Origin: Azorinus chamasolen
Taxonomy: Eukaryota > Mollusca > Bivalvia > Cardiida > Solecurtidae
Length of the DNA: 64,000 nucleotides
Direction: 5' to 3'
NCBI GenBank assembly: GCA_963576725.1
Contig: OY755242.1
Location: forward strand, 60,395,324-60,459,323
Under the pieces are notes generated by a model that saw only the letters and a list, made by a program, of their open reading frames with translations, did not search any database and was not told where the DNA came from. Both the position numbers and the translations under genes were made by a program. This document shows, piece by piece, positions 12,400-62,113 of the stretch. Numbering within the stretch: the first letter of the stretch is position 1; every line of letters begins with the position of its first letter.

Positions 12400-12807
12400 T
12401 TTTTCATTTCAGAGTTATGGCCATTGTCCTTAAAAAATATGCAAATAGTTTGTCCGCTGTTTTCTGGAAAAACTATTTGAGAGATATTAATGAAACTTCA
12501 CACAAATGTTTAATGCATCAAAATCTGAAGCTGTGTCGATTTTGAGGTTCATTTGATTTGTTGTTTCGGAGTTATGGCCCTTTTACTTAAAAAATAATGC
12601 AAATACATGCAAATAGTTTGTCCGCTGTTTTCTGGGAAAACTATTTGAGTGATATTAATGAAACTTCACACAAATGTTAAATGCATCAAGATCTGAAGCT
12701 GAGTTGATTCTGAGGTTCATTTGATTTTTTATTTCAGAGTTATGGCCCTTGTTCTTAAAAAATATGCAAATAGTTTGTCCGCTGTTTTCTGGGAAAACTA
12801 TTTGAGA
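12400..12807 (+). repeat. Tandem array, left part
   Basis: Three units of the array that resumes after Gypsy element 2. The marker GTTTGTCCGCTGTTTTCTGG occurs at about 12446, 12616 and 12773, giving 170 and 157 bases between units. Confidence 0.85.
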
Positions 12808-13952: not shown

Positions 13953-15020
13953 ATGGCCCATAGCAAAGCTTATGATGAGTTTAAACAAATTGTAGGTGAT
14001 AAAATCAATAGGACTCTTATGGGGGAGCCTAATGCAGCAAGTACACCTAAATTTACAGGTGGTGCTAGTAACCAGACTGACATGGCAGGTAACACAAGTG
14101 TTTTCAGGTCTACCCCTTCTGTCCCAAAAATCCCTTTCTTTTCTGGAGATGAGCCACCACAAAAAGGTGATATTTCTTTTCAGGAGTGGAAATTTGAGAT
14201 TAAATGTTTAGAGACTGACCCTGATCTTACATCTACTATTGTTGTTCAGGCTATAAGGCGTTCTTTAAGGGGTACTGCTAGAAAAATGTTGATTTCTTTG
14301 GGTGAAAAGGCTACTGTTATAGAGATTTTACATAAACTTGATGCCATATTTGGAGATGTTTCATCTAAGGGCATGGTAATGCAGGAATTTTTCAACTCCC
14401 ATCAGCATCCTGATGAATCAGTTACTGCCTTTGGATGCCGCCTGGAGACTCTTCTCCAGACAGCTATTGATAATGGTCATTTAACATCTGCTGCAAAGAA
14501 TGATCTTTTAAGACACAAGTTTTGGACCTCCTTGTATAGTGATAGTCTTAAAAGTCAAACTAGGCACAAGTATGATTCTTTGACAAATTATGAAGAGCTT
14601 TTGAGGGAAATTAGATCAGTTGATAAGGAAATTCGGCTTTCACACAACCCTAGTTCAAATCCCAGTACTAAGAAATCACAGCAGTCAGCTATTCAGTCAT
14701 CAGATTCCCAACTTGATTTTGATAGGAAACTCACTGAATTGGAAAAGAGGTTAGATTCCAAGATAGAGGAAAAGTTTGACCTTATCTTGAAGAAGTTGGA
14801 CAGTCAGAAATCTGATGACAGGGGTTTAGTAGATCCTAAACCTGGTGATCAAGGGTCTAATAATAGATATAGGGGGAATCAGAGGGGTAGAGGTTATTTC
14901 CGACCATACAGAGGGAGGGGTAACCAAGGTCACCAGAACTACCATTACAATAACAGTTACCAAGGTCAACAAAGCTACCAAGGTCAAGGTCCTCACAATA
15001 ACAGTCAGCCAAAAGATTAA
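13953..15020 (+). CDS. gag: Gag of Gypsy element 2
   Basis: 355 codons from the ATG at 13953 to TAA. Residues about 58-225 form a capsid domain (KIPFFSGDEP, FQEWKFEIKCLE, RRSLRGTARKML), close in style to PNMA/Arc-type gags. A coiled-coil stretch follows (LDFDRKLTELEKRLDSKIEEK). The C-terminus is an RGRG and SYQGQ repeat-rich tail. There is no CCHC zinc knuckle, so RNA binding probably rests on the RG-rich tail, which is unusual for a Gypsy gag. Pol begins in the -1 frame just after. Confidence 0.88.
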   Translation: MAHSKAYDEFKQIVGDKINRTLMGEPNAASTPKFTGGASNQTDMAGNTSVFRSTPSVPKIPFFSGDEPPQKGDISFQEWKFEIKCLETDPDLTSTIVVQAIRRSLRGTARKMLISLGEKATVIEILHKLDAIFGDVSSKGMVMQEFFNSHQHPDESVTAFGCRLETLLQTAIDNGHLTSAAKNDLLRHKFWTSLYSDSLKSQTRHKYDSLTNYEELLREIRSVDKEIRLSHNPSSNPSTKKSQQSAIQSSDSQLDFDRKLTELEKRLDSKIEEKFDLILKKLDSQKSDDRGLVDPKPGDQGSNNRYRGNQRGRGYFRPYRGRGNQGHQNYHYNNSYQGQQSYQGQGPHNNSQPKD

Positions 15021-15040
15021 CCTCTCCTGTTGTAGGCCAA

Positions 15041-19726: not shown

Positions 19727-22130
19727 GAGATATATTAATGAACTTCACACAAATGTTTAATGCATCCAGGTCTGAAGCTGAGTCAATTCTGAGGTTCATT
19801 TGATTTTTCATTTCAGAGTTATGGGCCTTTTACTAAACAAATAATGCAAATACATGCACATAGTTTGTCCGCTGTTTTCTGGGAAAACTATTTGACAGAT
19901 ATTAATGAAACTTCACACAAATGTTTAATGCATCAAGATCTGAAGCTGAGTTGATTCTGAGGTTCATTTGATTTGTCGTTTCGGAGTTATGGCCCTTGTC
20001 CTTAAAAATATGCAAATAGTTTGTCCGCTGTTTTCTGGCAAAAGTATTTGAGAGATATTAATGAAACTTCACACAAATGTTTAATGCATCAAGGTCTGAA
20101 GCTGAGTCGATTCTGAGGTTCATTTGATTTGTCATTTCGGAGTTTTCGCCCTTTTACTTAAAAAATAATGCAAATACTTGCAAATAGTTTGTCCGCTGTT
20201 TTCTGGGAAAACTATTTGACTGATATTGATGAAACTTCACACAAATGTTTAATGCGTCAAGATCTGAAGCTGAGTTGATTCTGAGGTTCATTTGATTTTT
20301 CATTTCAGAGTTATGGCCCTTGTCCTTAAAAAATATGCAAATAGTTTGTCCGCTGTGTTTTGGGAAAACTATTTGACAGATATTAATGAAACTTCACACA
20401 AATGTTTAATGCATCAAGATCTGAAGCTGAGTCGATTCTGAGGTTCATTTGATTTGTCATGTCGGAGTTATGGCCCTTTTACTTAAAAAATAATGCAAAT
20501 ACATGCAAATAGTTTGTCCGCTGTTTTCTGGGAAAACTATTTGAGAGATATTAATGAAACTTCACACAAATGTTTAATGCATCAAGATCTGAAGCTGAGT
20601 TGATTCTGAGGTTCATTTGATTTGTCGTTTCGGAGTTATGGCCCTTGTCCTTAAAAATATGCAAATAGTTTTTCCGCTGTTTTCTGGGAAAACTATTTGA
20701 GAGATATTAATGAAACTTCACACAAATGTTTAATGCATCAAGGTCTGAAGCTGAGTCAATTCTGAGGTTCATTTGATTTGTCATTTCGGAGTTTTGGCCC
20801 TTTTACTTAAAAAATAATGCAAATACATGCAAATAGTTTGTCCGCTGTTTTCTGGGAAAACTATTTGACTGATATTGATGAAACTTCACACAAATGTTAA
20901 ATGCATCAAGATCTGAAGCTGACTTGATTCTGAGGTTCATTTAATTTTTCATTTCAGTGTTATGGCCCTTGTCCTTAAAAAATATGCAAATAGTTTGTCC
21001 GCTGTTTTCAGCGAAAACTATTTGACAGATATTAATGAAACTTCACACAAATGTTTAATGCATCAAGATCTGAAGCTGAGTCGATTCTGAGGTTCATTTG
21101 ATTTGTCATGTCGGAGTTATGGCCCTTTTACTTAAAAAATAATGCAAATACATGCAAATAGTTTGTCCGCTGTTTTCTGGGAAAACTATTTGAGAGATAT
21201 TAATGAAACTTCACACAAATGTTAAATGCATCAAGATCTGAAGCTGAGTTGATTCTGAGGTTCATTTGATTTTTTATTTCAGAGTTATGGCCCTTGTTCT
21301 TAAAAAATATGCAAATAGTTTGTCCGCTGTTTTCTGGGAAAACTATTTGAGATATATTAATGAACTTCACACAAATGTTTAATGCATCCAGGTCTGAAGC
21401 TGAGTCGATTCTGAGGTTCATTTGATTTGTCATGTCGGAGTTATGGCCCTTTTACTTAAAAAATAATGCAAATACATGCAAATAGTTTGTCCGCTGTTTT
21501 CTGGGAAAACTATTTGAGAGATATTAATGAAACTTCACACAAATGTTTAATGCATCAAGATCTGAAGCTGAGTTGATTCTGAGGTTCATTTGATTTTTTA
21601 TTTCAGAGTTATGGCCCTTGTCCTTAAAAATATGCAAATAGTTTTTCCGCTGTTTCTGGGAAAACTATTTGAGAGATATTAATGAAACTTAACACAAATG
21701 TTTAATGCATCAAGATCTGAAACTGAATTGATTCTGAGGATCATTTGATTTTTCGTTTCAGAGTTATGGCCATTGTCCAAATAGTTTGTCCGCTGTTTTC
21801 TGGGAAAACTATTTGAGAGATATTAATGAAACTTGACAACAATGTATAATGCATCAAGATCTGATGCTGAGTCGATTTTGAGGTTTATTTGATTTTTCGT
21901 TTCGTTATTGCCCTTTTACTTAAAAAATGCAAATATATGCAAATAGTTTGTCCGCTGTTTTCTGGCAAAACTGTTTGACAGATATTAATGAAACTTCATA
22001 CACATGTTTAATGCATCAAGACCTGAAGCTGAGTCGATTCTGAGGATCATTTGATTTGTTGTTTCGGTGTAATGGCCCTTGCACTTAAAAAAATAATGCA
22101 AATCTATGCAAATATGAGGATGGCCATAAT
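19727..22130 (+). repeat. Tandem array, right part, alternating 157/168-bp units
   Basis: About 14-15 units. The marker GTTTGTCCGCTG starts near 19863, 20019, 20187, 20344, 20511, 20669, 20836, 20993, 21161, 21318, 21485, 21641, 21786 and 21945. Spacing alternates about 157 and 167-168. The long type carries an extra TAATGCAAATACATGCAAAT-like piece, so the true higher-order unit is a dimer of about 325 bases. The last two units are shortened and more diverged. Confidence 0.9.
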
Positions 22131-30754: not shown

Positions 30755-31438
30755 CTAAGCCCTATGGCCTCTTGTGACATGAACCTGGAACGATATCTTG
30801 TCCAGACACTGTGCACCACAGATGTTGCACTTGAATGGGTCATTCACTGTATGGCACCCTGAGTGAATATGGAACATTGTAAGATCCATGAAATCAATAC
30901 CACAGTGTACACATGGGTATTTCTCCACCGTAGGCTCAAAGGTGTCAGAGGTCTGAGAGGCCTTATCAACTACTCTCGCCTTTGCCTGCACAGCTTTCTG
31001 ACATCGCTCCACCTCTGCACCCTTCGGTTCCTGTTGCGCTATCTTGCTCCTTTTAACAGGTGCCAATACCGGCTGAGGCGTCGTGCGCTTTCTTTGTATC
31101 CTACCAGCCTCTATGTCTATATCGGGCTCATTGTCCCATTCACTGTCACTTTCACCCGATGTCTCACTATCATCTGACATTTCCTTGTCTGGCTCAGGAA
31201 GTGCAGTGTTCTTGCTTGTTCCCGGAGCAACGACTGTTTCCTTGTTTTCATGCTGGTGCTTCTTATGACGCTTCAAACAGTTTTTGTTTTTGAAATCTTT
31301 GTCACAAAGATCACACCTTTCTCTGCTGTTGACGCATTCCAACAGATGTTCCTGATAACTTTTATCCAGAGGAACCGTCTCTTTGCAGACCGCACAGATT
31401 GTCTGGGGCTTGCGAGGGCTATTCTTTGTCTTCACCAT
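30755..31438 (-). CDS. Zinc-finger module of Gypsy element 3, Ikaros/Hunchback-type end
   Basis: It could be the Pol C-terminus (residues 1675-1901) or a separate 227-codon protein: an ATG at 31438 follows a splice acceptor (TTGTTTTTCTATCTGCAG, AG at 31447-31446). Fingers: C1689-x2-C1692 with H1705 and C1709; C1716-x2-C1719-x12-H1732-x4-H1737; an acidic linker and a basic segment (GRIQRKRTTPQPVLAPVKRSK); then C1850-x2-C1853-x12-H1866-x3-H1870 and C1878-x2-C1881-x12-H1894-x4-H1899, joined by seven residues. That final pair has the spacing of the C-terminal dimerisation fingers of Ikaros and Hunchback proteins. Host-gene capture is the likely source. Confidence 0.8.
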   Translation of the reverse strand: MVKTKNSPRKPQTICAVCKETVPLDKSYQEHLLECVNSRERCDLCDKDFKNKNCLKRHKKHQHENKETVVAPGTSKNTALPEPDKEMSDDSETSGESDSEWDNEPDIDIEAGRIQRKRTTPQPVLAPVKRSKIAQQEPKGAEVERCQKAVQAKARVVDKASQTSDTFEPTVEKYPCVHCGIDFMDLTMFHIHSGCHTVNDPFKCNICGAQCLDKISFQVHVTRGHRA

Positions 31439-34400
31439 ATCTGACCTGCAGATAGAAAAACAATAGTCATCATGCCATGCTGGTTTTCTTTTTTCTCGTT
31501 TACCTAACCTAACATCCTCAACTTCTTCTTCCGGTACAACAGGCATGGTCTCGTTATCTGTGTCAGGATATTCCCCGACCAACGTCTGCTCTTTTGCTTT
31601 CTTCAATCGGTCAACATGTACAACCTGGAAGGAACCAAATCTACCACAGTCAATTTTATACAAAACATCAGAAATCTTCTCTATCACCTGGAATGGCCCC
31701 TTCCAGTATGAAGTCAGCTTCGACGAGGTACCTATTCTTTTTACAGGAAAGAAAACATAAACTCTATCACCTCTATCTAATGCTACATAGTTAAGCTTAC
31801 AGGCATGGTACTTCTTTTGTCGCCTAATGGACCTACCTGTGTAGTCCCTAACAAAACAATGTGCATTCTCCAACCCCTCTTGCAGTTCCCAAACCCATTG
31901 CTTTGTTGGAACTGGTTTGATACCCGAAGGCATGGCATATATGATATCGAGAGGAGTACTTGTCTCTCGTCCAAGCATCAGCATGTTTGGACTTAGTCCT
32001 GTCGTTTCGTGCTCTGCGGCACGATAGGCCATCATCACATAAGCTAAGTGCATATCCCAATCTCGATGGTTCTCACTCACATATGCACTCAACATTTCGC
32101 ACAGTGTCCGGTTGAATCGTTCAACCATTCCATCTGACTCAGGGTGATAGGGCGTAGTCCTAGTCTTTTCTATTTGGAGTAAGTTGCACATTTCCTGAAA
32201 CAATTTACTCTCGAATTGTCTCCCTTGGTCGGAGTGAATCTTCTGAGGTACTCCAAAGCGACATACTAACTGTTCAACTATCAACCTCGCCACTGTAGAG
32301 GCTTCCATGTTGGACATTGGGTAACTCTCTGTCCACTTGGTAAAATAGTCCGACACTACTAGGATGTACTTGTGGCCACGTTCTGTTTGTGGTAGCTCTC
32401 CTAGTATGTCAACAGCAATTCTCTCCATGGGATAACCGCTTCTTGTCACTTGCATAGGGGCTTTCTTAGTCTGATTTGGTCCTTTCCTCTTTGCACAGAT
32501 CTCACACCCATTTACGTAGTTTTTAACATCGTTCTGTAGACCTGGCCAATAGAATCTTTGTCTAACCTTGCTCAGGGTCTTCTTAATGCCTAAGTGACCC
32601 GAAGCCTTTATGTCATGGGAATACCTAAGAACGGTTCGCCTTTGTGAAAGGGGAACAACGGCTTGCCAATATACAATATTGCTACCTATGACATCCCATC
32701 TTCTTGTCACAAGCTGTTCGTGTATAGCTAGTCTATCAAACTGGGCCCACAATGATTTAAGAAAGTGACTTTCTTTCATGATTTCTCTATGGTTGGGTTT
32801 AAACCCTTGTCTGAGCCATTCTTTGACTAACGTAATGTCCGGGTTATTGTTCTGTGCTGTATTCAGCACTTCTATGTTTGTATCTGACTCAGTGTTCTCA
32901 TCTTGTGAATGAACTTGTCTTGCACAATCACTTATTTCCTTTTCCACAACAACACAATCCTGTCCACATTGTTTACATACTCGTCTGCTAAGACTGTCAG
33001 CATTCTTGTGTAGCCTTCCAGCCCTGTGTTCAATTTTCATATCAAAAGAGGAGAGAAACTCTATCCATCTTGCCACTTGTCCTTCGGGATTTTTGAAATT
33101 TAGTAACCATCTCAGTGATCCGTGGTCAGTTCTAACCAAAAACTGCTTCCCGTACAAGTAGTGTTTGAAATACTTGACGAAGTTAACAAGTGCTAAGAGT
33201 TCCTTCCTTGTCACGCAATACCGCCTTTCCGATTTACTGAGAGTTCGACTGGCATAAGCTATGACATGTTCATTTCCATCAATGTTCTGGGATAATACTG
33301 CCGCGATAGCTTGGTCACTGGCATCTGTGTCTAATATAAAAGGCTTGCTAAAGTCAGGATGAGCTATTATCGGTGCCTCTTTCAACTTTTGTTTTAATGT
33401 TGCAAACGCTTCTGAACATGAACTGGTCCAGCTGAACGCTTTTCCCTTTTCAGTCAGTTTATGCAGTGACTTAGCTATCTCAGCAAACTGGAATATGAAA
33501 CGCCTGTAGTAGCTGCATAACCCGAGAAATGAGCGTACATCTCTAACACATTTTGGTTCTGGCCATGTACTGATTGCATCAGTCTTCTTAGGATCTGTTC
33601 TAACTCCATCGGCTGATACGATGTGACCCAAGAATTCCACTTCTTTTGCAAAAAGTTGACATTTCTTTTGTTTCAGTTTCAGCCCTGCTTCACGGAAACG
33701 CTCGAAGACCTGACTCAAGTTTGACACCATCTCCTCAAAAGTTTTACCTGTAACAATGATGTCGTCCAGGTAAATCAAACACACTTCCCACTGCAAACCA
33801 GTCAGAACTGTTTCCATGAGCCGTTCAAAAGTGGCCGGGGCATTACATAATCCAAACGGCATCACTTTGAACTCAAACAATCCTCTCCTGCTGGAAAATG
33901 CGCTCTTCTCTCTGTCAGCCTCATCTAGTTCCACCTGCCAATACCCAGAATTTAGATCTAGGCAGGAGAACCATTGGTTCCCTGCTAGCTGATCTAAACA
34001 ATCATCGATCCTTGGCAGTGGGTAAGCATCTTTCACTGTCAGGTCATTCAAACGTCTGTAATCAATACAGAAACGAGTGCTTCCATCCTTTTTCTTTACT
34101 AAAACTATACCACTGGCCCATGGGCTCTTTGAGGGCTGAATAACATCTTTCTCCAGCATTTGCTCTATTTGTGAATCTACTTCTTCATTCCTATGAAATG
34201 GGACACGGCGCATGGGCTGTTTTACTGGATGTGCATTTCCAGTGTCAATTTTATGCCTTATGATCCCAGTTCGACCAATGTCATTCTCATTCTCTGAAAA
34301 TATATCTCTGTACTTGTTCAGTAGTTTGGCTACATCTTGCCTTTGTTTCACATCTAACCCGTGAACAGTTCGTTCGTACAGGTCTTTCAAATGACTAGGT

Positions 34401-36460
34401 ACTGTCGTACCTGTGTTTGTATGCTTCGGTAGGAGCTTAGTTTTCTGTACCTCGCATACTTGACTGGCAGTTGCCACGTGAGTTCCAGGGTATAATATCT
34501 GTGCCTCGTTTGTTGGATTAAGTATACGCACTGGTACATCAGATTTTCCTTGTACTAAGGATTTTGCGACCATGCTTCCCTGTGATTGATAACTTTTCTC
34601 TATTGGCTCTATAAGACACAGTTCATCCGGCCTGAGTTTATTTCCATCAATTTTTCCCTTAACGATTGTTTCAGACCGTGCAGGAATCTCTGTACGCTCA
34701 GAGACTACGACCCGGTAGCATCCAAAAGTTCCAGTACAATTTAGCTTCAAACGTTTCCCTTGGATGGTCAAGGTATTGTTTTCAAGGTCCAATTTACCTC
34801 CTTCTTTCTTTAAGAAGTCAAGTCCAAGAATTACATCACTGTCAATGTTGGCAACCACAACATCACAACCGAACTTTGTGCCAGCAATTTCTAACTCAAC
34901 GCTAGTTTTGCCTTGTATTGATATCAAGTCTCCTGATGCTGATACAAGGTTTCTGTCAAACTTCCAAAGCTGTTTGGTGTCATCACAAATGTTTGTCCAA
35001 ACTTTTGAAGAGACCAAGGTTAACGTGGCCCCTGTATCAACTAGACAATCAACTTCTCGGCCGGCTAGAAGACCAGATATGTAAAGTCCGGAACCTTTGA
35101 AACCTGACGTGTTTACTGCTCCGTCATCTTTTTCATTTGACTGATTCCCAGAGAAGTTATCTTTCTGCTTAGCTTTCCAATCTTTGTTTCCCACTTCAAA
35201 TCTCCTTTGCCCACCATTTCTCATCTGATTTGTCTGACTTTTTCGCCTGGGACAGTCAGCTATTAAGTGGTGCTCAGACCCACATTCATAACACTTTCTT
35301 GGTTGCATGGTTCCTGTGCGACTCTTGTTTTCATACCCCGTTTGTTGGTTTGTACTTGATCTCTGTCTCGACCGATCTTCAAATCGCCGGTTTCCAGTAG
35401 TAGACTGGCTCTCCGATTTCTTACTCCATGTTCTAAATTCACTTTGCAGATTAGTTATGGCACTCTTCAGTTCCTTTATTTCATCATTTCTAGAGTCAGT
35501 CTCAGGTGAAACAGCTGAATACAGTATCCCTGTGTCAGCTACCTTCTTCTGTTCTGTCCGATAATAAGCCTCAAGTTCAATTGCATGGTGAACGGCATCA
35601 TTCAGGTTTGTGGGGCGGGCTTGTTTAACCTTTAGTCGAATGTCTGAGCTATGTAGCGAGTCAATGAATTGTTCTTTAGAAAGAGTCTCCTTAACATCAG
35701 ACGGTGCACTAGCATAAGCCAAATTGGTGAGTCTTCGTATATCTTGTGCTAGCTCAGCCAGACTTTCAGATGCCTTTTGACGTCTGTCTCGGAGCTGACA
35801 TCGGTATAGCTCTGTCTGATTAGGAGGGGCAAATCTCTCTTGTAACGCAGTACTGAGTGCTTGAAAGTCATTGGTTCTGTCGGACAAGTTCCCAAGCACA
35901 CCTTGTGCCTGTCCCCTTAGGGAAACTGCCAGGTACAACCCTTTGTCTGAATCAGACCATTTATTTATCTTGGCACAAGCTTCAAAGTGAGCTATGTAAT
36001 CATTCCAGGAACCAGTGCCATCGTATGTAGCTGGTTTGACTTTAGCTCCAAGACTTGGGCTGGTGTAAGAGTCCACATTCAATGAACTGCTCTTTTGTTC
36101 AGAACTAGGATTAGGTTGAAATTTGACTTGCTTTCGCTTAGTAACGAAACGGTCTGGTTCCATCTGACTGTCAGATTCTCTATGTTTTATTGAAGTGACC
36201 CATGTCGGTAGTGTTGAAGTATCTGTTTTGAATGCATGGACTGGGCTGCTAGTCCGATGCTGTGCTTCTGGGGTATGCATTGCCTCTCTATACCAGTGTT
36301 TGTCACCAGACATACTGTTTTCTCGTTCCATGTCAAACAGTTTCTGTTCAAGTAGGGTTATCTCCGTTTCCAACCTACTGGTTTCATTTTGACGTGACAA
36401 CATATTCAACTTCTCGTCTACCTCTCTCAGTCGCTGTTCAAAACCAGCTGACGTATCCAT
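30755..36460 (-). CDS. gag-pol: Gag-Pol with C-terminal zinc-finger extension, Gypsy element 3
   Basis: One frame of 1,901 codons. Residues 7-47: coiled coil. 143-300: capsid (SWNDYIAHFEACAK, SLRGQAQG). 390-403: CCHC knuckle. 475: protease (VDTGATL). 897-900: YLDD of reverse transcriptase. 1044-1155: RNase H. Integrase: H1282, H1289, C1319, C1322, then D1351, D1411, E1447 (D,D-35-E) and a KGPF motif near 1587. Unlike the other two elements, gag and pol share one frame. After integrase the frame continues without a stop into about 227 residues with four zinc-finger-like units, described separately. Confidence 0.93.
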   Translation of the reverse strand: MDTSAGFEQRLREVDEKLNMLSRQNETSRLETEITLLEQKLFDMERENSMSGDKHWYREAMHTPEAQHRTSSPVHAFKTDTSTLPTWVTSIKHRESDSQMEPDRFVTKRKQVKFQPNPSSEQKSSSLNVDSYTSPSLGAKVKPATYDGTGSWNDYIAHFEACAKINKWSDSDKGLYLAVSLRGQAQGVLGNLSDRTNDFQALSTALQERFAPPNQTELYRCQLRDRRQKASESLAELAQDIRRLTNLAYASAPSDVKETLSKEQFIDSLHSSDIRLKVKQARPTNLNDAVHHAIELEAYYRTEQKKVADTGILYSAVSPETDSRNDEIKELKSAITNLQSEFRTWSKKSESQSTTGNRRFEDRSRQRSSTNQQTGYENKSRTGTMQPRKCYECGSEHHLIADCPRRKSQTNQMRNGGQRRFEVGNKDWKAKQKDNFSGNQSNEKDDGAVNTSGFKGSGLYISGLLAGREVDCLVDTGATLTLVSSKVWTNICDDTKQLWKFDRNLVSASGDLISIQGKTSVELEIAGTKFGCDVVVANIDSDVILGLDFLKKEGGKLDLENNTLTIQGKRLKLNCTGTFGCYRVVVSERTEIPARSETIVKGKIDGNKLRPDELCLIEPIEKSYQSQGSMVAKSLVQGKSDVPVRILNPTNEAQILYPGTHVATASQVCEVQKTKLLPKHTNTGTTVPSHLKDLYERTVHGLDVKQRQDVAKLLNKYRDIFSENENDIGRTGIIRHKIDTGNAHPVKQPMRRVPFHRNEEVDSQIEQMLEKDVIQPSKSPWASGIVLVKKKDGSTRFCIDYRRLNDLTVKDAYPLPRIDDCLDQLAGNQWFSCLDLNSGYWQVELDEADREKSAFSSRRGLFEFKVMPFGLCNAPATFERLMETVLTGLQWEVCLIYLDDIIVTGKTFEEMVSNLSQVFERFREAGLKLKQKKCQLFAKEVEFLGHIVSADGVRTDPKKTDAISTWPEPKCVRDVRSFLGLCSYYRRFIFQFAEIAKSLHKLTEKGKAFSWTSSCSEAFATLKQKLKEAPIIAHPDFSKPFILDTDASDQAIAAVLSQNIDGNEHVIAYASRTLSKSERRYCVTRKELLALVNFVKYFKHYLYGKQFLVRTDHGSLRWLLNFKNPEGQVARWIEFLSSFDMKIEHRAGRLHKNADSLSRRVCKQCGQDCVVVEKEISDCARQVHSQDENTESDTNIEVLNTAQNNNPDITLVKEWLRQGFKPNHREIMKESHFLKSLWAQFDRLAIHEQLVTRRWDVIGSNIVYWQAVVPLSQRRTVLRYSHDIKASGHLGIKKTLSKVRQRFYWPGLQNDVKNYVNGCEICAKRKGPNQTKKAPMQVTRSGYPMERIAVDILGELPQTERGHKYILVVSDYFTKWTESYPMSNMEASTVARLIVEQLVCRFGVPQKIHSDQGRQFESKLFQEMCNLLQIEKTRTTPYHPESDGMVERFNRTLCEMLSAYVSENHRDWDMHLAYVMMAYRAAEHETTGLSPNMLMLGRETSTPLDIIYAMPSGIKPVPTKQWVWELQEGLENAHCFVRDYTGRSIRRQKKYHACKLNYVALDRGDRVYVFFPVKRIGTSSKLTSYWKGPFQVIEKISDVLYKIDCGRFGSFQVVHVDRLKKAKEQTLVGEYPDTDNETMPVVPEEEVEDVRLGKREKRKPAWHDDYCFSICRSDMVKTKNSPRKPQTICAVCKETVPLDKSYQEHLLECVNSRERCDLCDKDFKNKNCLKRHKKHQHENKETVVAPGTSKNTALPEPDKEMSDDSETSGESDSEWDNEPDIDIEAGRIQRKRTTPQPVLAPVKRSKIAQQEPKGAEVERCQKAVQAKARVVDKASQTSDTFEPTVEKYPCVHCGIDFMDLTMFHIHSGCHTVNDPFKCNICGAQCLDKISFQVHVTRGHRA

Positions 36461-36508
36461 GTTTATTTATGAAGGTATGGGTACGAAATGACTGTGTGTC
36501 TATTTGGT

Positions 36509-42081: not shown

Positions 42082-42806
42082 TCACAATGCCATGATAATA
42101 GCTTTCATATACGATGCAGCAACGAGTGCCGAATAAGGCTGCCAGTCTTTCTTTGTACCGTCACTGTAATCACAAATTCCTCGAATAATCAGAAAACTCT
42201 CATTGCGATTGCCTTCTAGAGATTCTAAAACAGCTTCAAAGTCTAAATCAAAGGCTTTTATATTGTGTAATTCAGCATACTGGGCTCTGACGTCATGTGT
42301 TCTTGCGCACAGCTTACCGCTCCCTATAACGCCATGTTTGATGCAAGGTGCCGGTGGTCTGCTGTCATGCTTGTTGCGAGGACTTGGTTTAGGGTGATCC
42401 TCAGTAACTAACACACCTTCACCATTTCTGAACACAACTTTGTCTTTTTCTGCAGACGGTCTTTTAAAACTGGTTTCTTGTGAAGCAAGAGTTTCAAGTC
42501 CTTCTTCCGCATAAATATCCCATGGTTTAGCGTGTGTCCAATCTGACTTTGCTAGCGCTTTCAAACTTGTTGCAATATTTTGCAGAATTCTATTCTTGCA
42601 GTCGAATGATTTAGTTTTGAAGCTGAATCGTCCTGTTCTGTTTTTGTTATCAACGCTTGAACAGTGTAAATAGATTGGACTATTTTTATCCGTAGGCATT
42701 GACACCACAACATCACCGAGACGGACATGTTTGGTGAAGTCCTTGAGATTTGGAACTCCTCCAGCGACTCCAACAATAAGGACGTGTTCGATCTTGTTAA
42801 ATGTAC
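42082..42806 (-). CDS. Exon 11: PNP domain C-terminal part and stop
   Basis: Acceptor GTAAACGTACTTTCAG opens a 725-base terminal exon ending in TGA at 42084-42082. Residues 507-747 hold HVLIVGVAGGVPNL, RLGDVVVS, a longer variable insertion (about 580-640), KHGVIGSGK, AFDLDFEAVL and GICDYSDG, then an alanine-rich last helix. The order fits the insertion-bearing PNP_UDP_1 branch common in fungal and invertebrate multi-domain proteins. A TTAA MITE ends 47 bases past the stop, so it lies in or near the 3' UTR. Confidence 0.9.
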
Positions 42807-45800
42807 CTGAAAGTACGTTTACATTTAGATTAAATTTGTAATTTTCATATCCAACACCCATCCCTGTGTATAATACTCCATAAATACACATTTCTACGCC
42901 TTAGGATACAGAGTAGACTCAGATCAGACGACTCCTGTAGGAGCCGTCTGATCAGAGTCAGCTCTGATTGCTTGTAAAACAATATAAATCTGATTCTACA
43001 GTTTTCTGGCAAAAACTACCATGTTCATATGCCATGTTTTAAAAATAAACCGAATTAATATTAATGATGTCATTAATCATTACATGATTATTCATGGAGT
43101 AAACGGTTAAAAGGAATATTTCGTGTGGCCACATTGTGACTAGTTGTTTAAATACGATGGTACATTTCATCACTGCAAAATTAAAGCTTTATATTTCTGT
43201 AGTGTGGTTCCATAACAATACAGGTATCTCGCAAAGTTTGGGTTCGGGTGCCAAGTATGCTTATTTAAACTATAGTGCTTACTAGAGTACAAATAACATA
43301 ATTATATTTATTTCAGAGGAATAAGTGTGATATAATCTGTTCTCAAAACAATTTCACGTATTTTCCGAGTATTAAATGTTAACAATGATCCCGCCTCAAT
43401 GGTGTATTCGCGGTTTTGGGTGGGGATATCTCGTTTGTTCTACTGGAGGTCAATTAAGAGTTTTTACAGTTCAGTATATAGACGATAATTCTGGACGTCA
43501 ATTTGTTTAGATGTCTTACCTAAAAGGCGCGTGACGGTGTTTTCAGCGGATATCTTGGCTGTATTGCTTGATGTCGGGCTCATGGAGAGTTTCGTGCTCA
43601 CAACTTTGAATCGTCCAATGTTCCCTACAGTGTACACCTGGGATTCCCCTGGGATTTAAAAACAATCAAATCTCGATTAATCGAACTAAAATACGTATTA
43701 TTATCGATCTTTAAGACAGGTGGCAGCTTAATGCATGGTGAAAGTCAAGCAGAAAGCTCCTCTAAAAGTTTGGTCCTTCCAAAATTTACAACAGAGAATT
43801 GCTCTTAAATGTATCACTACGCATACAATGTATCTAGAAACACATGTGACAGCTTAATGCATGTCTAAAGTAATGCTGAAAGCTCCTGCCGGAAGGAGAA
43901 ATTAACGACAGTGTACACATGGGATTATCCCGTGATTGAAACGATGAATGACAATGAAATTAACAACAATGTAATGTATCCGAGCAAGATGTTTCAGGAA
44001 TTTTCTGGGAATTAATATCTATATTATTATCATAATCTGTATATCACCATTTTAATGAAAGCCCAGCCATCAAGATTATAGGTGAGTCTATCAACTTCAA
44101 TCATAGTTTCAAACTTTCAAGAACAACATCCTCATCGAAACTAAAAGCTTTAGAATGGACATATATTCCTTTGCTTAAATCTTATTTTCACTATTTAGGA
44201 CACTATTCTCATAGAGACTGACCAAAAGCTTTGAAACAAATAAGTGTTTCTTTTCTTAAATCTTTCCTGGGAAAAGACGACCATTTTGACAATATTTTGA
44301 ATTCGTAAAACATATAAAAATGTAGTACGGTGTGTAAGAATGAAGGGCTAGGGTCGTCCAGGACTGATCACATGACACCCACATATGTTACATTTCAATG
44401 TATGGTCTCCTACGGAAACATCTTAACCCTTAACTCCATGAATATTCTTTAAAAACATAATGCCGCCATGAATATTAATTGGGTTAATCTGTTATAAAAG
44501 CACATGGACACGTGAATTGTGACCATGATAGAAACTCTAGACCCATATCTATATTATATCATGGGCAAACAGAGCAGATCTTGATCAGACGGCTCCTATA
44601 GGATCCGTCTGATCTGGGTCTACTCTGTTTGCAAATGCGTGAACACGCGTTAATATGAGGGAAAGGGGTTAGATAGTTAAGTGAATGACGGACAGGTTGT
44701 AGGTTGCGCGGGTATGCATGGCATGGTCAAGCATTTAAAGTACTTAGTGTATGGCGTTTGGAGGGATTTACTGTTACAGTATTATATACAGTACCTGTTA
44801 CATACTTTATTTTTTTGTTTTGATAATATGTTCAAAATGTGAAGAAAAGACAAAGACTTGAAAAACAAATCATAGTAAAACAACGAGTTACCCGATGACG
44901 TATGACCTATGTATAGTTATGTACACCATTTTCAGCTATAACCTACATATATTATCTGATTATTTAATGAATCTAATAGTATCCCAACACTATTCTTGTT
45001 TCAAAAATGTTATATAAATGTAAAAACATAAAATGGCATAACTTAAAAGAAGCATATACTGCCAATTTAAAGTTAAATCATCAACAAAATAATTGCAAAA
45101 TATTTGACGGAGTTGTTTCCAGTAGTATGCCTTGCCATAGTAAACAGTAAACCCCCTCTTAAACGGGCGTTTAGATTAGTATCCATGCCAGTCTGTAAGA
45201 CAGGGGACAGATTCCAAATGGAGCTTTCTGCACGATTAAGCTACCACCTGCCTAAAAGATCTAAATTCTTCTTAGCTAAAATTCCAGTTTAGAAGGTTTA
45301 TATTGTACATTGATATTTTAGCAGTCTGTAGGATGCATGCTCGTAACAAATATATTAAAAAGGCTATTCAACTTGTGCAGGTTTAAATGATTAATGAATG
45401 CTGAATCAGGAAAGCGATAAAATACCTAACTGAATAGTATTTGGTCAATAATACCTGTTTGCTCCCACGCGGCTTTTAATCCAGACGCAAGATAGTTTTG
45501 ATACCACTTTTTAAGTGTATTTCGACGTTTCATGTTACGAATTACGGGTATATTAACCCTTTGCCTTGCTTAGTGCGACGTGTCGCATTTCAAACAGCTT
45601 GGATCCAGATAAGACGCCGAGTAACTCAGCGTAAATCAGGATCCAAGCTGTTTGACAATCGGTCAATAGTTTCCCAAAACTTGATCGAATCGATTATTCT
45701 TAAACAGAATCTCACAATTTTTGAGCAGATTACAATTGGTTTACACTAAACCCATTTAGACCCAGTTTTTTTTTGTTTAAATAAATCTACCGAAAAGGAG

Positions 45801-48800
45801 CAGTTATTAGAGAAAAGCAAAAATTTAGAATTGTGTAGTTTTTAAACCACAGGAGCAAATGCTCTATTTATCACAATGGTTTCAGAAAGTGACTTTTACA
45901 GAGGCGTCAAAAGGCGTCAGTATGAGGAAATGGGTTTAACTATAAATTGTTATATATAATATACACAGGGATGGGTTTTGGATATGATAATAACAAATTT
46001 AATCTAATTGTAGACGTCAACCATAAAACTTAAAGAACATAGACAAAGTAAAGCAAATACAGTATAAATTAAAGACCTCTGACAAAGTCAAACAAATACA
46101 AACTTAAAGAAAACGGACAATATAAAGCAAATAGATAAAACTTAAAGAACATCGCCAAAGTTAGGTAAATACAAACTTTAAGGACACTGACAAATTAAAG
46201 CAAATATAAAGTTAAAAGAATACTAAAAACACAGACAAAGTAATGCAAACTTTACTAAATCAAATACTAAATTAAATGCAAAGTGTGCGTGTTACACTAT
46301 CGTGTTTTTCATATGTTTCTTCATTCTATTTGCATGTGCTCTGCCATGTCACGAGACCCAAACTAGGACCACTGTACCACTACTAAAATGTAGACGCCAA
46401 AAACACTGGCACTAGATCGAAAAAGACTGTAGTTCTATTTATACTAGAACTGTCACTAAAGGTGATGAATACCCCCGCACGGCAGTCTTGGTTGCAAATT
46501 CAAGTTTGTTACGCCAATGAACTACCAATGAAACAAGACTAAATGACAAACATACTCAAAGTTCAAATGGAGATAATTCTGTAATGGCTGCCACTAAACG
46601 TGGGAAAAGTGTGCCTTGCACATGTACTTTTCATGTTAACCCTTTCGCTGCCAATGCCGGATCTATGATTACCTATGCAAACAGTTTGGATCCAGATGAG
46701 ACGCCGTGTAACTCGGCGTCTCATCGGAATCCAAACTATTTGTTACTGTTACTACGTTTTTGAAACAAAAATGAAGAAATTAAAAAAAATGAAAATTTGT
46801 AGCAGACGACAAAGTTAGCAGACGACAGAGTTTGGCAGCGAAAGGGTTAAGTATGTATGGCAAGTATAAATTCAATAAGTTTCAAATTGAAGGAGGAGTT
46901 CGCAACACCAACTCCCCATGTTTCATGCCAAAATGACAAAAAACAAGTTTGTGGGATTATAATAACACCTATTATATGTTTAATAAGGTACTATAAATAG
47001 AACTATAGTCTTTTTCGATTTAGTGCCAGTGACTAATAGATATTTATCCTGTCATCATATTTTTTGTGTCGTAATAACAGGGTCCCTGGTTAGATCAGTA
47101 GACCACAAAATAGGTGGGTTATGTCTGTCATTTCATCTAATGACCATGACATTCTACTTTCTATTACGATGTACGGTAAAACATGGATTATTCGAACAGT
47201 TAAACATGTATACTAATCGATCTCTAAGACAGGTGGCAACTGAATGCATGGTGAAACTCCCCATGATAGCGTTCTGCATGATTTCCAACCTGCATTATAC
47301 AGTCCCTGCCTAAAAGAGTCTAAGTTCTTCTATAATAGAAAATTGAATTATCGTGAATTTACGGTATATCATAGTCACGCTTATTCAACGCAAAGAACAT
47401 CATCTCATTGTCTGGCATGCTTTTAACCCTTACAGTGATTGGCACGAGTCACTAATGTCCTTTGCAAACAATGTCCCAGATGAGAGGGCTCCTACAGGAT
47501 CCTATCATCAGGATCTGTACTGTTTGTCATGTTACGCTTTTCTTTAGAACAATCCCTAAACATTAACCATAAGCTTGACCTGTTTGAAAATTGGAATAGT
47601 CCATTTGAAAATTCAGCTTTGTAAGGGATTAAGTATTCTTTTAGGTTCCGCTTATAGTGTCACAAACCATAACATTTTCTTTATACCGCCCCGTATTTAT
47701 AACCGAGATTAAGCTCGAAAGCAGAAAACTATGTTGATTTGAAACGTCAGTAAAGTTTAACCCATTCCCTCATAAGCTATTTTTAGATCCAACCTCTTTC
47801 ACTGATTCTACCAAAAAGGAGCATTTACAAGAGAAAGGGATTTTTTATAGAAGTTTGTAGTTTTTAAACAATTGTGATAAATAGAGCATTTGCTCCATAG
47901 GAGCAAAATTAACGCTCTTTTTATCAAAATGGTTTCAAAGAGTGGTGTCTAATTTTTTTCAATCGTATTTAGTTGTTTGTATTTCATTATCATTTATGTT
48001 CGTGTAATTATTCATTACATTTGGATAGCTATCTTAAGCGGCCATTCGTTTATTAAACATAGTCTTAAAAACCAGGCGGTTGTTTAATGCAGTGCAAAAG
48101 TAATGCAGAAAGTTCATATAGGAGCTTTCTGCATTACTTCTGACCTGTATTTAGCTAGACCCTTACAGTCCCATTATTAGGACTCAGTTTGATGACCTCT
48201 TAAGACAAGTTCTACTGTTGTTTAAACGACATTAATGGTGGTATAAAAACCTTGACATAAATAGTAAATCGTTCTGTTTCAGTGTTGACTGAACGTAAGC
48301 AATCCAAAATAGGACATGTGCTTGGCGTTATTTGACCAAGACTCCGGAATAGCCTAAAATAATGGTGAAAGTGCTAAATAATTGTGAAAAACTAATTTTA
48401 AGCATTTTGATAGGATTAACCTTATTTTGCCAGCGTTGTTTTGGAAATCTGTGTAAATTGACACGTATTCAAAGGATTGATAAAAGAATATGTTGACAGG
48501 ATAAACAGAATCCCAGGTGAGTGTCGTGTGTGGAAAAGTTTATCTGATTCGGCGGGCTTTAGAAAGCGTTCGGTCTCGCTTCCTAAGCTTCATTAGATAA
48601 ACTTTTCTATTTTCGCCACTAATCTGACACTCTCTATACGACACGTGAGGGGGCGAATAGAGAAAATACCACTAAAACCAGAGCTACAGATAAAACTGCG
48701 TAACCAAATACTAAAATCGTCATTTCTTCACCAAACCATATATGGTGACAACTCTTTAGTTACGTAACTTCGAGACAATTCTAAAGAGTGGTCACAGGAA

Positions 48801-51800
48801 AGAGTTTGGTGGAGAAAGGAGCTATTATTGAAAATGTTTAAATTTGCGCATCTTATCTGGACCTCTGTAAAACACAAGAAAGGTGACAGCCATACTCACC
48901 AACAAAACTACGACGGACTAGAATTAATAGTTTTAGATCAAAATTAGTTAATAATATATACTCGTATGGTTATATCAAGCAGAGCTGCAATAATGGAGGC
49001 TAACAGGATATGTTTGACAATAAAAATAAACTTGTGCATTTGGCATGTGCGGGGGTCTATGGAGGGTATGTGCGGGTGTGTTCGGTTGTGTACCTGCATG
49101 CATGTGATTGTGTGTATATGTGCATATACACGTGTAAGGTGCCGTGTGGTGCGATGTATGTGTGTGCGTATATATGTACGTGCGTGCGCGCGTGTGTGTG
49201 TGAAATCAAACAAAAACAGCGTATCAAAGTATTACCTTTGAAAGTATGCATTTATGCGTTTGCTGTAGTTTCGCACACTACTCGTTAATGGATATTTTGC
49301 TTGTTGCTATTGACACCGCATGTAAGATGAAATATATCTACTTTATACAGTAACCCTTTCGGTGCCAAATTTCTAACTGTCGTCTGCAAACTAATTTTGT
49401 TAAATCATTTGGTAAATTAAGTAAATGAGATAAATAAATGCAAATTTCAAAGAAATAAAGCATAAATCTAGAAATAGAGATTGCGAGAAAAGTGAAGTTC
49501 CTGATCAAACGCCGCCTTAAAAAGGCGGCATCTGATCTGGGAGTGCACTTTTGTCGTAGCGCATTTATGTGACACTGGCGGTGAAAGGGTTAAGTAAATA
49601 TATGTAAATAGTACTGCTTAATATCATACACGGTGCATCATTTTCGACACTCGAGAAAATGTTTATTGGTGTTGGTGGCTTCAAGTACTAAATTAAATCA
49701 TATTTGACTACAGTTAGTCATGGAAATGAAATGTATAGTAAAAACATGTATAAAAGCAAATTAAAAAGAAGTCTAAATCTGGGTCTAGGCAGGTGGTTGC
49801 TTAATGCCGGACAAATGTAATGTAGAAAGCTCCAAAAGAGTTTTGTTTTGCATTGTGTATGCCTTGCATTAAGCGATCACCTGCTTTTAAGCTTACTATG
49901 TTTAATCAATAAATGATATAACTTAAAACAGACACTGTACTAGAACCCCTGCCATACAGAACAAGAGCTGAAGTGTCTGGTACAAAACATCGAGATAGGT
50001 CAGCACGATGGCCTATCCCATTCCCTCTTAGGTTATTTTTAGACACAGTCTCTTTGAATAAATCAACTGAAAAGGATCATTTACTAGAAAAATGGGAAAG
50101 GAAATTGAATTGTGTAGTTTTTAAACCGTTGTATTTATAACACTGGTTTCAAAAGGTGACATATTCATAGTATTTCATAAGCAAACAGAGCGAACACTGA
50201 TCATACTAGCAACACATTTTAGAATACTGACCTTCTGTTTTATATTTGACGAATGTCGTTTTCTCATCTATCATAGCGTCCACGGCCAACTTCTCACAAT
50301 AACGGGAGGTAATGATAGCGATTATTGGTTGTTCTTTTCCAGTCAGTTGTGGAATGTCACGAACCAGTTTCATTTCTGTAAAGATAAATGAACAAAAAAC
50401 CAGGAAAAATGACAACATTGACATGTGTTGCTTTTATAGTACACATGTAACGTATTGTACTGCAGTAGTCAATCCCTTATGTAGTTTCGGAAGCCAACTT
50501 GCCATTAGTAAATAAAGATGGATATTTCGTATGTAAGTTACATGCTGTTAAGACATTTGAAGAAGGAATTGCACGAATTTCTACGTCCTAACTTTACACT
50601 AATACTTACAACCTTATCCTTTCTATGCTGAATTCTCAAATGCACTATTCCCAAATTCAAACAGATCAAGCTTAGCGTGAATATTCAGGGATTATTTAAA
50701 GACAAGCAACAAATGCGGAAACCGCATTAAAGCCGGATTTTTTGTGTTGACCTTGACCCAATTCCATGTATCCTTGTATCAACTAAAAGGCATTCACCCA
50801 AGCTGTCTGCATACCAAATATAAATTATCTAGCCCGTGTAGTTCAGAAGTTATAACAGTATTTAAATGACAGCCAATGTTTCAAAATAGTGACCTTGACC
50901 TGATTTCAGGTATCTTTCTGTCATCCGTAAGGTCCTTACAAAAGCTATCTGAATACCAAAGGTGAATTGCCTAGCACTCGTGGATCAGAAGTTATAGCAA
51001 AATGTTAAAGTTTGTTAAAAACAGCCAAGTTTTCAAAATAGTGACCTTGACCTTGACCCAATTTCATGTATCCTTGTATCAACTGAAAGGCCTTCACCAA
51101 AGTTATCTCCATACCATATATGAATTGTCTAGCATATGAGGTTCAGCAGTTAAGAAAAAAATTGAAGTTTTTCATTTATGGCCAACTTGTCTAAATAGTG
51201 ATCTTGACCTTGACCTGATTTCAAATATCTTTCTATCACCCGAAAGGCCTTTACCAAAGCCATTTGTATATCAAAGATGAATTGCCTAGCATTTGTAGTT
51301 CAGAAGTTATAGGAATGTTAAAGTTTGTTAAAAACGGCAAAGTTTTCGAAATAGTGACCTTGACTTTGACCTGATTTCACGTATCCTTGTATCAATTGAA
51401 AGGCCTTCACCCAAGCTATCAGTATACCAAATATGAATGGTCTATCTTAAGTTATTAAGACGTTATAAGGACTGTTAAAGTTTTGCTAATGACGGCAAAA
51501 TTTTGGAAATAGTGACATTGACCTTGACCTGATTTCATGTATCCTTGTATCAAGTGAAAGGTCTGTATACCAAATATAAATGGTCTAGCTTAAGTAATTT
51601 AGAAGTTATAAGCAATGTTAAAGTTTTCTTAATGAGGGCCTGCCCACCCACCTGCCCACCTGCCCACCCGCCCGCCAAGAACATTAATGACTGTCTTGTT
51701 TCCCGTACTTAAGGATCAAATCAATTTTAACGCCATAAAACGAAACTTAAATGCATGAATGATATATTTAATGAGGTGGTGGGATTAAAACGAGTTTAGT

Positions 51801-54800
51801 CTTATTGTTTATTAGGCAAACTTTATGACTCCATTCATGTTTGTTTTTTACCATGACCTGATCCGTTCTGTGTCTCAAACTGGACCCTCATCCAACGACC
51901 AACCTCGACTTCTTTTATCAAGTTCTGTTTCTCAAGATCCTTTAACATTATCACCAGCGTACTTGGATCGAGACTACGTCCAGCATTTTGCCTGAAGACA
52001 AAAAAGAATTACAATAATATATCTACAATAATATATCGCTAAAACAACACGAATATTCAGATTGTTTTTCTCGACAGACTGTAGATGAATACAGGATAAA
52101 TGTCCCGTTCTCATTTAACCCTTTCCCTGTTCTATGTTTATTACAAATTTCAATACCTACTGAATAGTCATGGAAAATAATAGTTACAACGAACTATGGA
52201 AGATGGAACATTGTAGCCAATTTAGAAGTAAAGAAGCATATCTTTTGAATTCCATTAGCAAACAGAGCAGACCCTGATCAGACGGCTCCTATAGGAGTCG
52301 TCTGATCTGGGCCTACTCTGTTTGCCTATGCGTGAAAACACGCTTATATGAAGGAAAGAGTTTAACGGTCATGTGCTTCTTAAGGCAGATTATGAACTTT
52401 ACAGATGGTTCTACGCTAGTTTTGTAACTGTTTTAGAAACAAATATACGCGTAAGAGGTTTTTGTTCTAAATTGCTTTTAATGTTCACGAGCGTCGGTCA
52501 TGGCTTAGAGACTCGTGGATATAGGCCATGAGCTAGAGCCTCGCGTATATAGGCTAATATGAACTAGAGCCTCGCAGGTACAGATCATGTGATTGAGTCT
52601 CTAGGATATAGGCTAGAGGCAAGAGCTTCGCGGATACAGACCAAGAATAAGAGCATCATGGGTATAGGCAATACACTAGAGCCTCATGGGTATAGGCCAA
52701 GCTACGGTAACAATGTACTAGAGTCTTATGGATAAAGGTCGTTAGGTAGCGCCTAATTGATATAGGCCATGAGCTGTTGCTTTAACTTTTTTATCACGGA
52801 TATAATACGACTACAGTGGTGAATGCACATAAAGACACACTTATACACGTATATGGAAATACCCTCTAAATCGGACATCTAATTTAGTATAAATATCAGT
52901 CTTGGAGACAGGTGGCAGCTTAATGAAGGGTGAATGTCATGCAGGAAGCTCCTTTAGGAGCTTTCTGCATGACTTTCACCTGCATGAAGTAGCCATCTGC
53001 CCAAACCTAAATTCTTCACTATTATAATTTCGGTTTAGAGGGGTTTTACTGTATAATCTTTGGGTCCATAGTTGTAGTATCCCTTTGTATCTGTGATGCT
53101 GGTCGTTGAACATAATCAAAAACTGGTTTCAATGAAACTATATTACTTACTGCAGTACATCGTTTACGGACAATGTATTGGGGTAAACGTCTTCTAGGCA
53201 ATGGAGAATTCTCTGTTTTCTGGCCATCCATAACAGCTGTTTTTGCATCCGGGCCTTCTTCGCCTGTTTACTGTAATCGGCCTCCACTTCTTGGCAGCAA
53301 TAGGAAACAAAATGTTCATTGCATTCACTGAGTTTGTTCGACAATGAATTTTAGAAATCAAATTATTTGCTGCAAAACTGAGCGAATGGTGTAAAAAGAT
53401 AAATTTGTTTTCATTTGATTATTCAGTATATTGAACAGTCTTTTAAGACATATTTTATAACTCTATCTAACTTTAATCAGAACATATTCCCGTTGTTCTT
53501 AAATATATGGTTTATGGCTATGCCACCTTGGAAAGTTTCAGTTGACATGTATTAAATAGTTCACTCTTAAACATGAACCAGCTAACCTATCCATTGGTAA
53601 CTTACCGAGTAGTTCAGCAAACTCAAACTGACCATGTGACGTATTGTCAGTTGCAACAGCCAATGATGTGATGGGAAATCGTTTATTCTCCGGAAGGTTC
53701 CACTCCAGGAATTTCCCATCTCCGTAATGAGCGCCTCGACCAACCTCGATGCAGAAATCTCCCCAGCTTAACCAGAAGTATCGGAGCTCCTACAAGGAAT
53801 ATGGGGAAGGAACAGTATGTGTACGTGTACCAACAGGAACTGCATGATACAAGTTATACACGATACACCAGGTGCTTTCCGAGTGCCGATCTATATTTGA
53901 ATTCGAAAGTAATCTGATAGCATTTGAATTTGAATCTGAAGGAGACTCCGACATTTAATTAGGCAAATGTGACTGTGCACATTTCGTAAGAAACACAGGT
54001 TGTAAAGACATACTGTAAACTATTTTTAAAGTTTACATTTATTTAAGTTTTAATTCTTTGTTTTACAATGAATGTTAAACGACATATTAAACCTTAAGAT
54101 TCATACATTGAACTCATAAAATATTGCTTAAGTTTTTAGTGGTGGGGTTAAATATTTTGTATCAAATATTATACAGGGTGGTTATTACCTAAAAAACGGT
54201 GTACATTTATTTCAGTTTTAATTCTTTGTTTTACAATGAATATTATAGGACTAATTAAACCTTAAGGTTCATACTTTGAACTCATAGAAATGTGTTGCAA
54301 GTTTTTAGTAGCGAGGTTTAATCTTTTTTTTATTAAATATTCTATAACAGAATGCTTTTTAACTCAACAAATTAGATAAGTGATCTATCACTAGCTTTTC
54401 TTGTTTCAAAGATAGCGATGCGTTTTATTTATAAATAATTTGTGGAAACGATAAACGGATTCAAAATGAATCTAACTTTTGTGTGTGAAAAAACACTTTA
54501 ACAATTATTATACTTTAAGTATTTCTAAATCTTATTCAAATTACTGTTATGTAGGATACATTTTGCATAAAATAACAATTAATAACAGAAACTATTCATA
54601 GATATAGAAATTTGAAGTCGGTAACCGGTAACTGATTGTTTATTATGTATTTTACATGCACGGTTGAAATCTACAAACGAAAACATTTTCAGAAAAATCA
54701 TCAAATAAAAATCTCTGTTAGGTGTATTAATTATAACATTAATATCACTGCTTTTATCAGATTGTACGGCCTTTTATAGAATATGGAGACAAACTACCAA

Positions 54801-62113: not shown

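Follow-up and report, generated by a model that had tools for sequence, protein, structure and literature searches.

Enzymes of the nucleoside-phosphorylase superfamily are used by bacteria for ATP cleavage in phage defence and are carried by fungi in NLRs. The PNP effectors of the bacterial Detocs systems cleave ATP, according to passages of PMC11249213 and a table row of PMC10952713; fungal NLRs with PNP_UDP domains are described in excerpts of PMC10197012, PMC12881547 and PMC12258605; and PNPase effectors in bacterial and animal conflict proteins are treated in a section of PMC8195603. The Methyltransf_FA domain (PF12248) occurs in the arthropod protein FAMeT, and excerpts of PMC10015273 state that farnesoic acid methyl transfer was never reliably shown for FAMeT itself. 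Here we describe a gene of the bivalve Azorinus chamasolen in which a Methyltransf_FA domain, a winged helix and an enzyme domain of this superfamily are joined. It was found in a 64,000-nucleotide stretch, called the window below (GenBank assembly GCA_963576725.1, contig OY755242.1, positions 60,395,324 to 60,459,323 of the forward strand), where it spans 20 kb. Comparison with homologs confirmed it as a real and conserved gene.

With moderate confidence, we read it as an intact four-domain bivalve enzyme gene whose C-terminal domain is a nucleosidase and whose Methyltransf_FA domain is a ligand-binding beta-sandwich controlling the enzyme. Judged by its sequence, the protein is the mollusc form, leech relatives included, of a protostome-wide family, and it is probably intracellular.

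Gene structure

A first-pass annotation made from the raw sequence had proposed a single split gene. Rebuilding its eleven exons on the minus strand gave ten introns, each of them GT-AG, with phases that agree throughout; the chain has a frame of 2250 nt, 749 codons and a TGA stop. The Mercenaria homolog (P0002), compared with the window by tblastn (E <=0.01), gave ten matches and none besides, all on the minus strand and in order. They cover residues 10-743 except for the joints and a microexon, have E values of 2e-12 to 1e-81, and coincide with exons 2-11. The single gene was thus confirmed. Exon 1 was outside the reach of this test because it is only 28 nt long; its MTVSMNDSE corresponds to MTVNVNESE of Mercenaria and to similar sequences in Mya and Dreissena.

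The eleven exons stood, but the proposed start of exon 5 did not, and the microexon had been missed. The start at 55137 was rejected because the ten residues that it adds are missing from 21 of 21 aligned homologs, in all of which the end of exon 4 passes straight into the equivalent of KSFVS. The acceptor TTTGCAG, slightly downstream, sets the start at 55107, and the tblastn match begins at 55108; the corrected coding sequence is 2220 nt (739 aa). At the exon 9/10 junction, the Mercenaria and Mactra proteins contain the six residues VRRSFV and those of Mya and Dreissena close variants. A stretch of intron 9 (Table 1), preceded by AG and followed by GTGAGT, encodes VRRSFV in phase, and of the 464 AG-18-GT stretches that the two strands of the window contain, no other does so. 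P0001, 90% identical to the Mercenaria protein, has no residues at this place, and in Aplysia and Biomphalaria the junction carries another insert. The stretch looks like a cassette microexon.

Table 1. Exons of the Azorinus gene, in window coordinates
Feature	Position	Strand	Content	Evidence
Exon 1	62113-62086	-	start codon, MTVSMNDSE	splice phase; N-termini of Mercenaria, Mya and Dreissena
Exon 2	56933-56790	-	N-terminal domain	splice chain; tblastn, 68% identity to Mercenaria
Exon 3	56511-56314	-	N-terminal domain	splice chain; tblastn
Exon 4	55601-55479	-	end of N-terminal domain	splice chain; tblastn
Exon 5 (start corrected)	55107-54842	-	Methyltransf_FA, first part	homolog alignment; tblastn; Pfam
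Exon 6	53789-53606	-	Methyltransf_FA, second part	splice chain; Pfam; tblastn
Exon 7	53289-53151	-	linker helix and first part of winged helix	splice chain; Pfam; tblastn
Exon 8	51991-51852	-	winged helix (HTH_69), second part	splice chain; Pfam; tblastn
Exon 9	50375-50232	-	start of nucleosidase domain, Glu12-like residue	splice chain; active-site alignment; tblastn
Microexon, 18 nt, probably optional	48917-48900	-	encodes VRRSFV	homolog alignment; AG-18-GT scan
Exon 10	43648-43520	-	nucleosidase domain	splice chain; tblastn
Exon 11	42806-42082	-	remainder of nucleosidase domain, DxD, Asp197-like residue, stop codon	splice chain; active-site alignment; tblastn

Domains and active site

The Methyltransf_FA-like domain of the first-pass annotation was recovered with Pfam, and its winged helix with scores on either side of the cut-off. 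PF12248 matches the window protein with 79.3 bits against a cut-off of 24.2 (E 2.9e-22), and also 35 of 35 homologs at E 0.01; in the corrected protein the domain occupies residues 165-314. HTH_69 (PF22979), the winged helix, scores 28.1 bits as a cut piece and 23.4 in the whole protein, against a cut-off of 27; it matches 34 of the 35 homologs at E 0.01. The fold of the Methyltransf_FA domain, predicted from a homolog model, is a galectin-like beta-sandwich; here, too, a beta-sandwich resembling galectins and CBM66 is more probable than a methyltransferase. Its identity to the Mercenaria, Mactra, Mya and Dreissena domains is 84-88%, the highest of the pieces measured; for the same four heterodont bivalves the enzyme core pieces give 54-83%, the N-domain 66-74%, the winged helix 55-67% and a variable stretch 34-42%. 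Since the domain is the best conserved among near relatives, its ligand, if any, is probably constant.

An N-terminal domain was absent from the earlier account. This N-domain (exons 2-4, 56933-55479) is common to the winged helix-phosphorylase family and has no convincing Pfam match in the members scanned. Scanned by itself, the N-terminal stretch of the window protein yielded Pfam matches at chance level only (best E 0.11); among 23 relatives a single one matched Ntox15 there, at E 0.016, under the Ntox15 cut-off. The fold comparisons barely probed this domain, their lists being filled by the others.

The C-terminus belongs to the nucleoside-phosphorylase superfamily and has the fold of methylthioadenosine/S-adenosylhomocysteine (MTA/SAH) nucleosidase (MTAN), as judged from fold comparison and homologs. 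In the best 50 rows of two fold comparison lists, MTA/SAH or futalosine nucleosidases account for 50/50 and 48/50, the other two being uridine phosphorylases. The best NCBIfam model is also MTA/SAH nucleosidase, with 25.9 bits, far under the cut-off of 169. Exon 11 alone gave no Pfam match and no PDB sequence match, and the whole protein gave no PDB match with phmmer; profile A3 matched three MTA/SAH nucleosidases in the PDB at E 0.04-0.05, and profile A2 one at E 0.57. A single PHROGs match (E 0.0095) is to a family without assigned function, and PADLOC matches were weak (best E 0.0059 for P0002, and 0.00015, for P0060, over four proteins scanned). The enzyme domain, residues 424-739, is about 90 residues longer than MTAN and includes a variable 118-residue stretch, residues 536-653, with a mean identity of 34%.

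The titles of PDB entries 1z5n and 1z5o name Glu12Gln and Asp197Asn mutants of MTA/AdoHcy nucleosidase. The Glu12 equivalent was placed from structural alignments in which model residue 424 and chain residue 1 are the starting points; a profile alignment to S. aureus MTAN (weak, E ~0.04) sets the family's RGiaDY on RAVSDL and its acid pair on VEME. In the corrected window protein the positions are E435 (Glu12), D685-x-D687 (acid pair) and D711 (Asp197). Residues were counted in 39 of the 44 listed PF12248 proteins (P0008, P0022, P0041, P0042 and P0044 omitted) and in 127 others, which include one piece of the Methyltransf_FA type and exclude P0059, a transposase fusion, as well as P0068 and all later rows, which are fungal or otherwise distant. 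The Glu12 equivalent is present in 39/39 Methyltransf_FA-type proteins and the Asp197 equivalent in 38/39; among the 127 they are present in 126 and 127, the first acid is D in 126, and the second is E in 111 or D in 3. Because the two catalytic residues are kept, N-glycosidase chemistry is favoured.

Relatives and descent

For the homolog search, the 7995 database candidates sharing most words were scored, giving 126 matches, of which 120 were listed. PF12248 is present in 44 of these 120, from 29 mollusc species and the leech Helobdella among others, and 38 of the matches listed align over at least 95% of the query. The four-domain protein occurs in bivalves, gastropods, cephalopods and a chiton. 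The same domain order is present in the bivalves Mercenaria, Mya and Dreissena, and the combination is not unique to this clam, since entries such as Mercenaria LOC123564258 have it. The clam gene is one among already predicted proteins, and its type extends a wider animal family by a beta-sandwich.

The animal matches ranking next (most of P0043-P0067) have no Methyltransf_FA domain. They belong to a sister family whose members come from insects, chelicerates, annelids, molluscs, a nemertean, a nematode and a rotifer, the last two with one member each in the homolog search. When 21 proteins without Methyltransf_FA were aligned with two having it, the N-domain, winged helix and enzyme were common (a few rows being incomplete) and Methyltransf_FA stood between the N-domain and the winged helix. 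A profile search from this alignment found 1012 proteins at E <=0.001; the 120 listed come from molluscs, annelids, a nemertean, horseshoe crabs, scorpions, spiders, beetles, wasps and a mosquito. Among the matches listed, no family member was found outside the protostomes. One gene without Methyltransf_FA, Octopus sinensis LOC115212809 (P0159, P0160, P0164, P0165), has isoform numbers up to X48, which suggests heavy predicted alternative splicing.

A tree was built from 67 rows hand-picked across taxa, namely the window protein, 26 others of the Methyltransf_FA type and 40 without the domain, with the Methyltransf_FA columns removed; one of the three Mya rows of the homolog search (P0004, P0006, P0008) was used. 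All 27 Methyltransf_FA-type rows fall in one group (96/95) with the leech basal, a position less sure because its branch is long (2.38). The sole intruder is Littorina P0050, a fragment of 429 aa whose first residue lies beyond the Methyltransf_FA domain; it was scored as lacking Methyltransf_FA in the active-site counts and in the tree, where it is the second label change counted. Within the group the named bivalves are together (99/88), and the window protein is grouped with Mya, Dreissena, Mactra, Mercenaria and P0001 (100/100). The topology follows the mollusc classes, and no expansion is visible among these hand-picked rows. Methyltransf_FA may have been gained once in a mollusc-annelid ancestor or lost elsewhere, and the tree does not decide between the two. 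A search from the leech protein P0064 returned three matches, P0064 itself, the new P0226 and P0027; the four regions are present in P0226, as judged by eye.

A search of the clam's own genome with PNP_UDP_1 retrieved four pieces on other contigs and not the present gene. These look like other enzymes because P0002 and P0046 gave no tblastn match at E 1 to the four loci.

Function

In the reading that we favour, the C-terminal domain would split base from sugar; it is most likely active, as an N-glycosidase of the MTA/SAH-nucleosidase type that acts on purine nucleosides or nucleotides. The Methyltransf_FA beta-sandwich most likely binds a conserved ligand, a glycan or other, and together with the N-domain and winged helix it would control where or when the enzyme acts. 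Several observations weigh against this. The nucleoside phosphorylase of the first-pass annotation held at superfamily level, through fold and homologs, but not by its Pfam score: PNP_UDP_1 (PF01048) reaches 12.8 bits against a cut-off of 25.1, and it matches 6 of 35 homologs at E 0.01. The E-x-E of MTAN is replaced by D-x-D in the window protein, and among the 39 Methyltransf_FA-type proteins 29 have D as the first acid, 7 have H (Aplysia and Biomphalaria among them) and 3 have Q, while the second is D or E in 35 and G or N in 4, with G in Patella, Lottia and Helobdella. The acid pair in MTAN binds sugar. We read the changes as a sugar or phosphate pocket that would be shifted in the family as a whole, with an apparent loosening of the pair in members such as Aplysia, Biomphalaria, Patella, Lottia and Helobdella. 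P0226, furthermore, has Asp at the Glu12 position, and activity may be lost or changed in some members. On the side of ligand binding, the fold resemblance stands at 5-12% identity, the whole Octopus model is modest (mean pLDDT 73.0, pTM 0.37), and its top Foldseek rows are a glucanase and a fructofuranosidase (with poor root-mean-square deviation), the galectins coming after. Over all 325 pairs of 26 Methyltransf_FA-type rows, the mean identity of Methyltransf_FA is 59% against 68% and 64% for the first two enzyme core pieces; a value for these columns in molluscs without the domain comes from stray aligned letters and was set aside.

That the locus holds two adjacent genes, or an exon chain assembled by chance, is scarcely credible. 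The 20-kb span, the 6.6-kb intron 9 and the repeats in the introns would allow it, but full-length homologs exist in many species, proteins from short contigs being covered over their whole length; these rule out two genes unless the gene is split in this animal alone, and chance chaining is rejected by the coincidence of the P0002 matches with exons 2-11. We consider an immune or cell-death effector unlikely, though it has several points in its favour; in such a protein the beta-sandwich would detect invasion or damage and pass the signal on through the winged helix, and the enzyme would break down ATP or a related nucleotide, an action reported for the PNP effectors of Detocs and proposed for those of fungal NLRs. 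The nearest named matches listed without HTH_69 or Methyltransf_FA are fungal multidomain proteins (P0068-P0120, best E 8.8e-23), many of them with NACHT, ankyrin or TPR parts; passages of PMC11249213 place PNP domains in eukaryotic proteins of immune-like architecture, and a section of PMC8195603 treats them as potential effectors in animals; the adjoining domain, moreover, is galectin-like in fold. In the window protein, however, no NACHT, NB-ARC, death or TIR domain appears among Pfam matches up to E 1. An arms-race immune receptor is made less likely by high conservation among near relatives, strongest in the proposed sensor itself, by the absence of an NLR part and by largely vertical descent. 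For the putative sensor, switch and effector suggested at first, the lectin-like fold makes a ligand-binding part plausible, but the descent and the conservation speak against a receptor that chases pathogens. The protein may instead be a conserved damage sensor or a metabolic regulator.

Less probable than the immune effector is a housekeeping nucleosidase for methylthioadenosine, S-adenosylhomocysteine or adenosine, its extra domains serving for location only. The fold comparison lists, the NCBIfam model and the long vertical conservation are in line with it; the variable stretch, the greater length and the changed acid pair are not, and conserved regulatory-looking domains would be needless in a plain salvage enzyme. 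A pseudoenzyme, in which the fold binds a nucleotide as a signal while the winged helix and beta-sandwich do the work, is less probable again: the variable acid pair, such as the H of Aplysia and Biomphalaria, and the weak Pfam score agree with it, but the near-complete retention of both catalytic residues in the two sets of proteins does not. A bolder reading, which we regard as a long shot, is a cytosolic lectin-gated nucleotide-destroying enzyme. Its galectin-like domain would read glycans laid bare within mollusc cells that are damaged or invaded, and would switch on, by way of the winged helix, an N-glycosidase that would drain ATP or a related nucleotide. If true, this would be an animal counterpart of the bacterial and fungal PNP effectors, built without the NLR part.

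No described function was found for the four-domain protein or its sister family. Enzyme activity of the clam protein would show whether animals kept a conserved, regulated nucleosidase of this superfamily, and the doubtfully named Methyltransf_FA domain gains a testable lectin-like role.

Repeats in the window

Three sets of retrotransposon-like long open frames are present, at 3522-9196 (+), 13932-19144 (+) and 30755-36466 (-), with gag-, reverse-transcriptase- and integrase-like sequence; their Ty3/gypsy look was judged by eye only. A tandem array of 162/168/324-bp units (19727-22114) adjoins one such frame, and a two-copy 168-bp array at 12439-12772 is similar to it in sequence. Part of intron 1 is a minisatellite of ~50-bp units (57429-58901; rows of 22.3 and 6.1 copies), and the same intron contains a fold-back element with 188-nt arms (59013-59200 and 59824-60011), 85% complementary and 623 nt apart. 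Many short fold-back palindromes lie in introns of the gene, at 57044-57149, 55295-55402, 60258-60357, 61893-61980, 52253-52330, 44560-44637 and 42909-42966; they are of a few related types, built around AGAAAGCTCC/GGAGCTTTCT and CAGACGGCTCC/GGAGCCGTCTG.

Comparison with described systems

In the open-licence literature, no description was found of Methyltransf_FA combined with a winged helix and a nucleoside phosphorylase. The closest entries are predicted proteins: Mercenaria LOC123564258, Mya LOC128225157 and Dreissena LOC127868525 have the same four domains in the same order, at least 38 rows aligning over 95-100% of the length, and such uncharacterized mollusc proteins differ by sequence only (64-69% identity to the nearest five). 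Mytilus LOC143064006, Tribolium TC000967 and Limulus LOC106465714 have the N-domain, winged helix and enzyme domain as in the window protein. Proteins of this HTH_69 and nucleoside phosphorylase type are without Methyltransf_FA, and their acid pair is mostly DxE.

The fungal Pfs/PNP_UDP_1-NACHT receptors and bacterial Detocs PNP effectors have the enzyme superfamily in common with the clam protein, and among the matches listed the fungal members are the nearest named non-animal ones. The clam protein differs from both in having a different input domain and no STAND NTPase, and no two-component partners are known for it. ATP nucleosidases of the Detocs type split ATP into adenine and ribose triphosphate. 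Arthropod FAMeT is alike in its PF12248 domain; it pairs this domain with itself or with DUF3421 and may not be an enzyme, according to excerpts of PMC10015273. Galectins and CBM66 resemble the Methyltransf_FA part by fold only. MTAN is matched in fold and in the equivalents of Glu12 and Asp197, and it differs in having ExE where the clam protein has DxD, the clam enzyme domain being longer and accompanied by extra domains.
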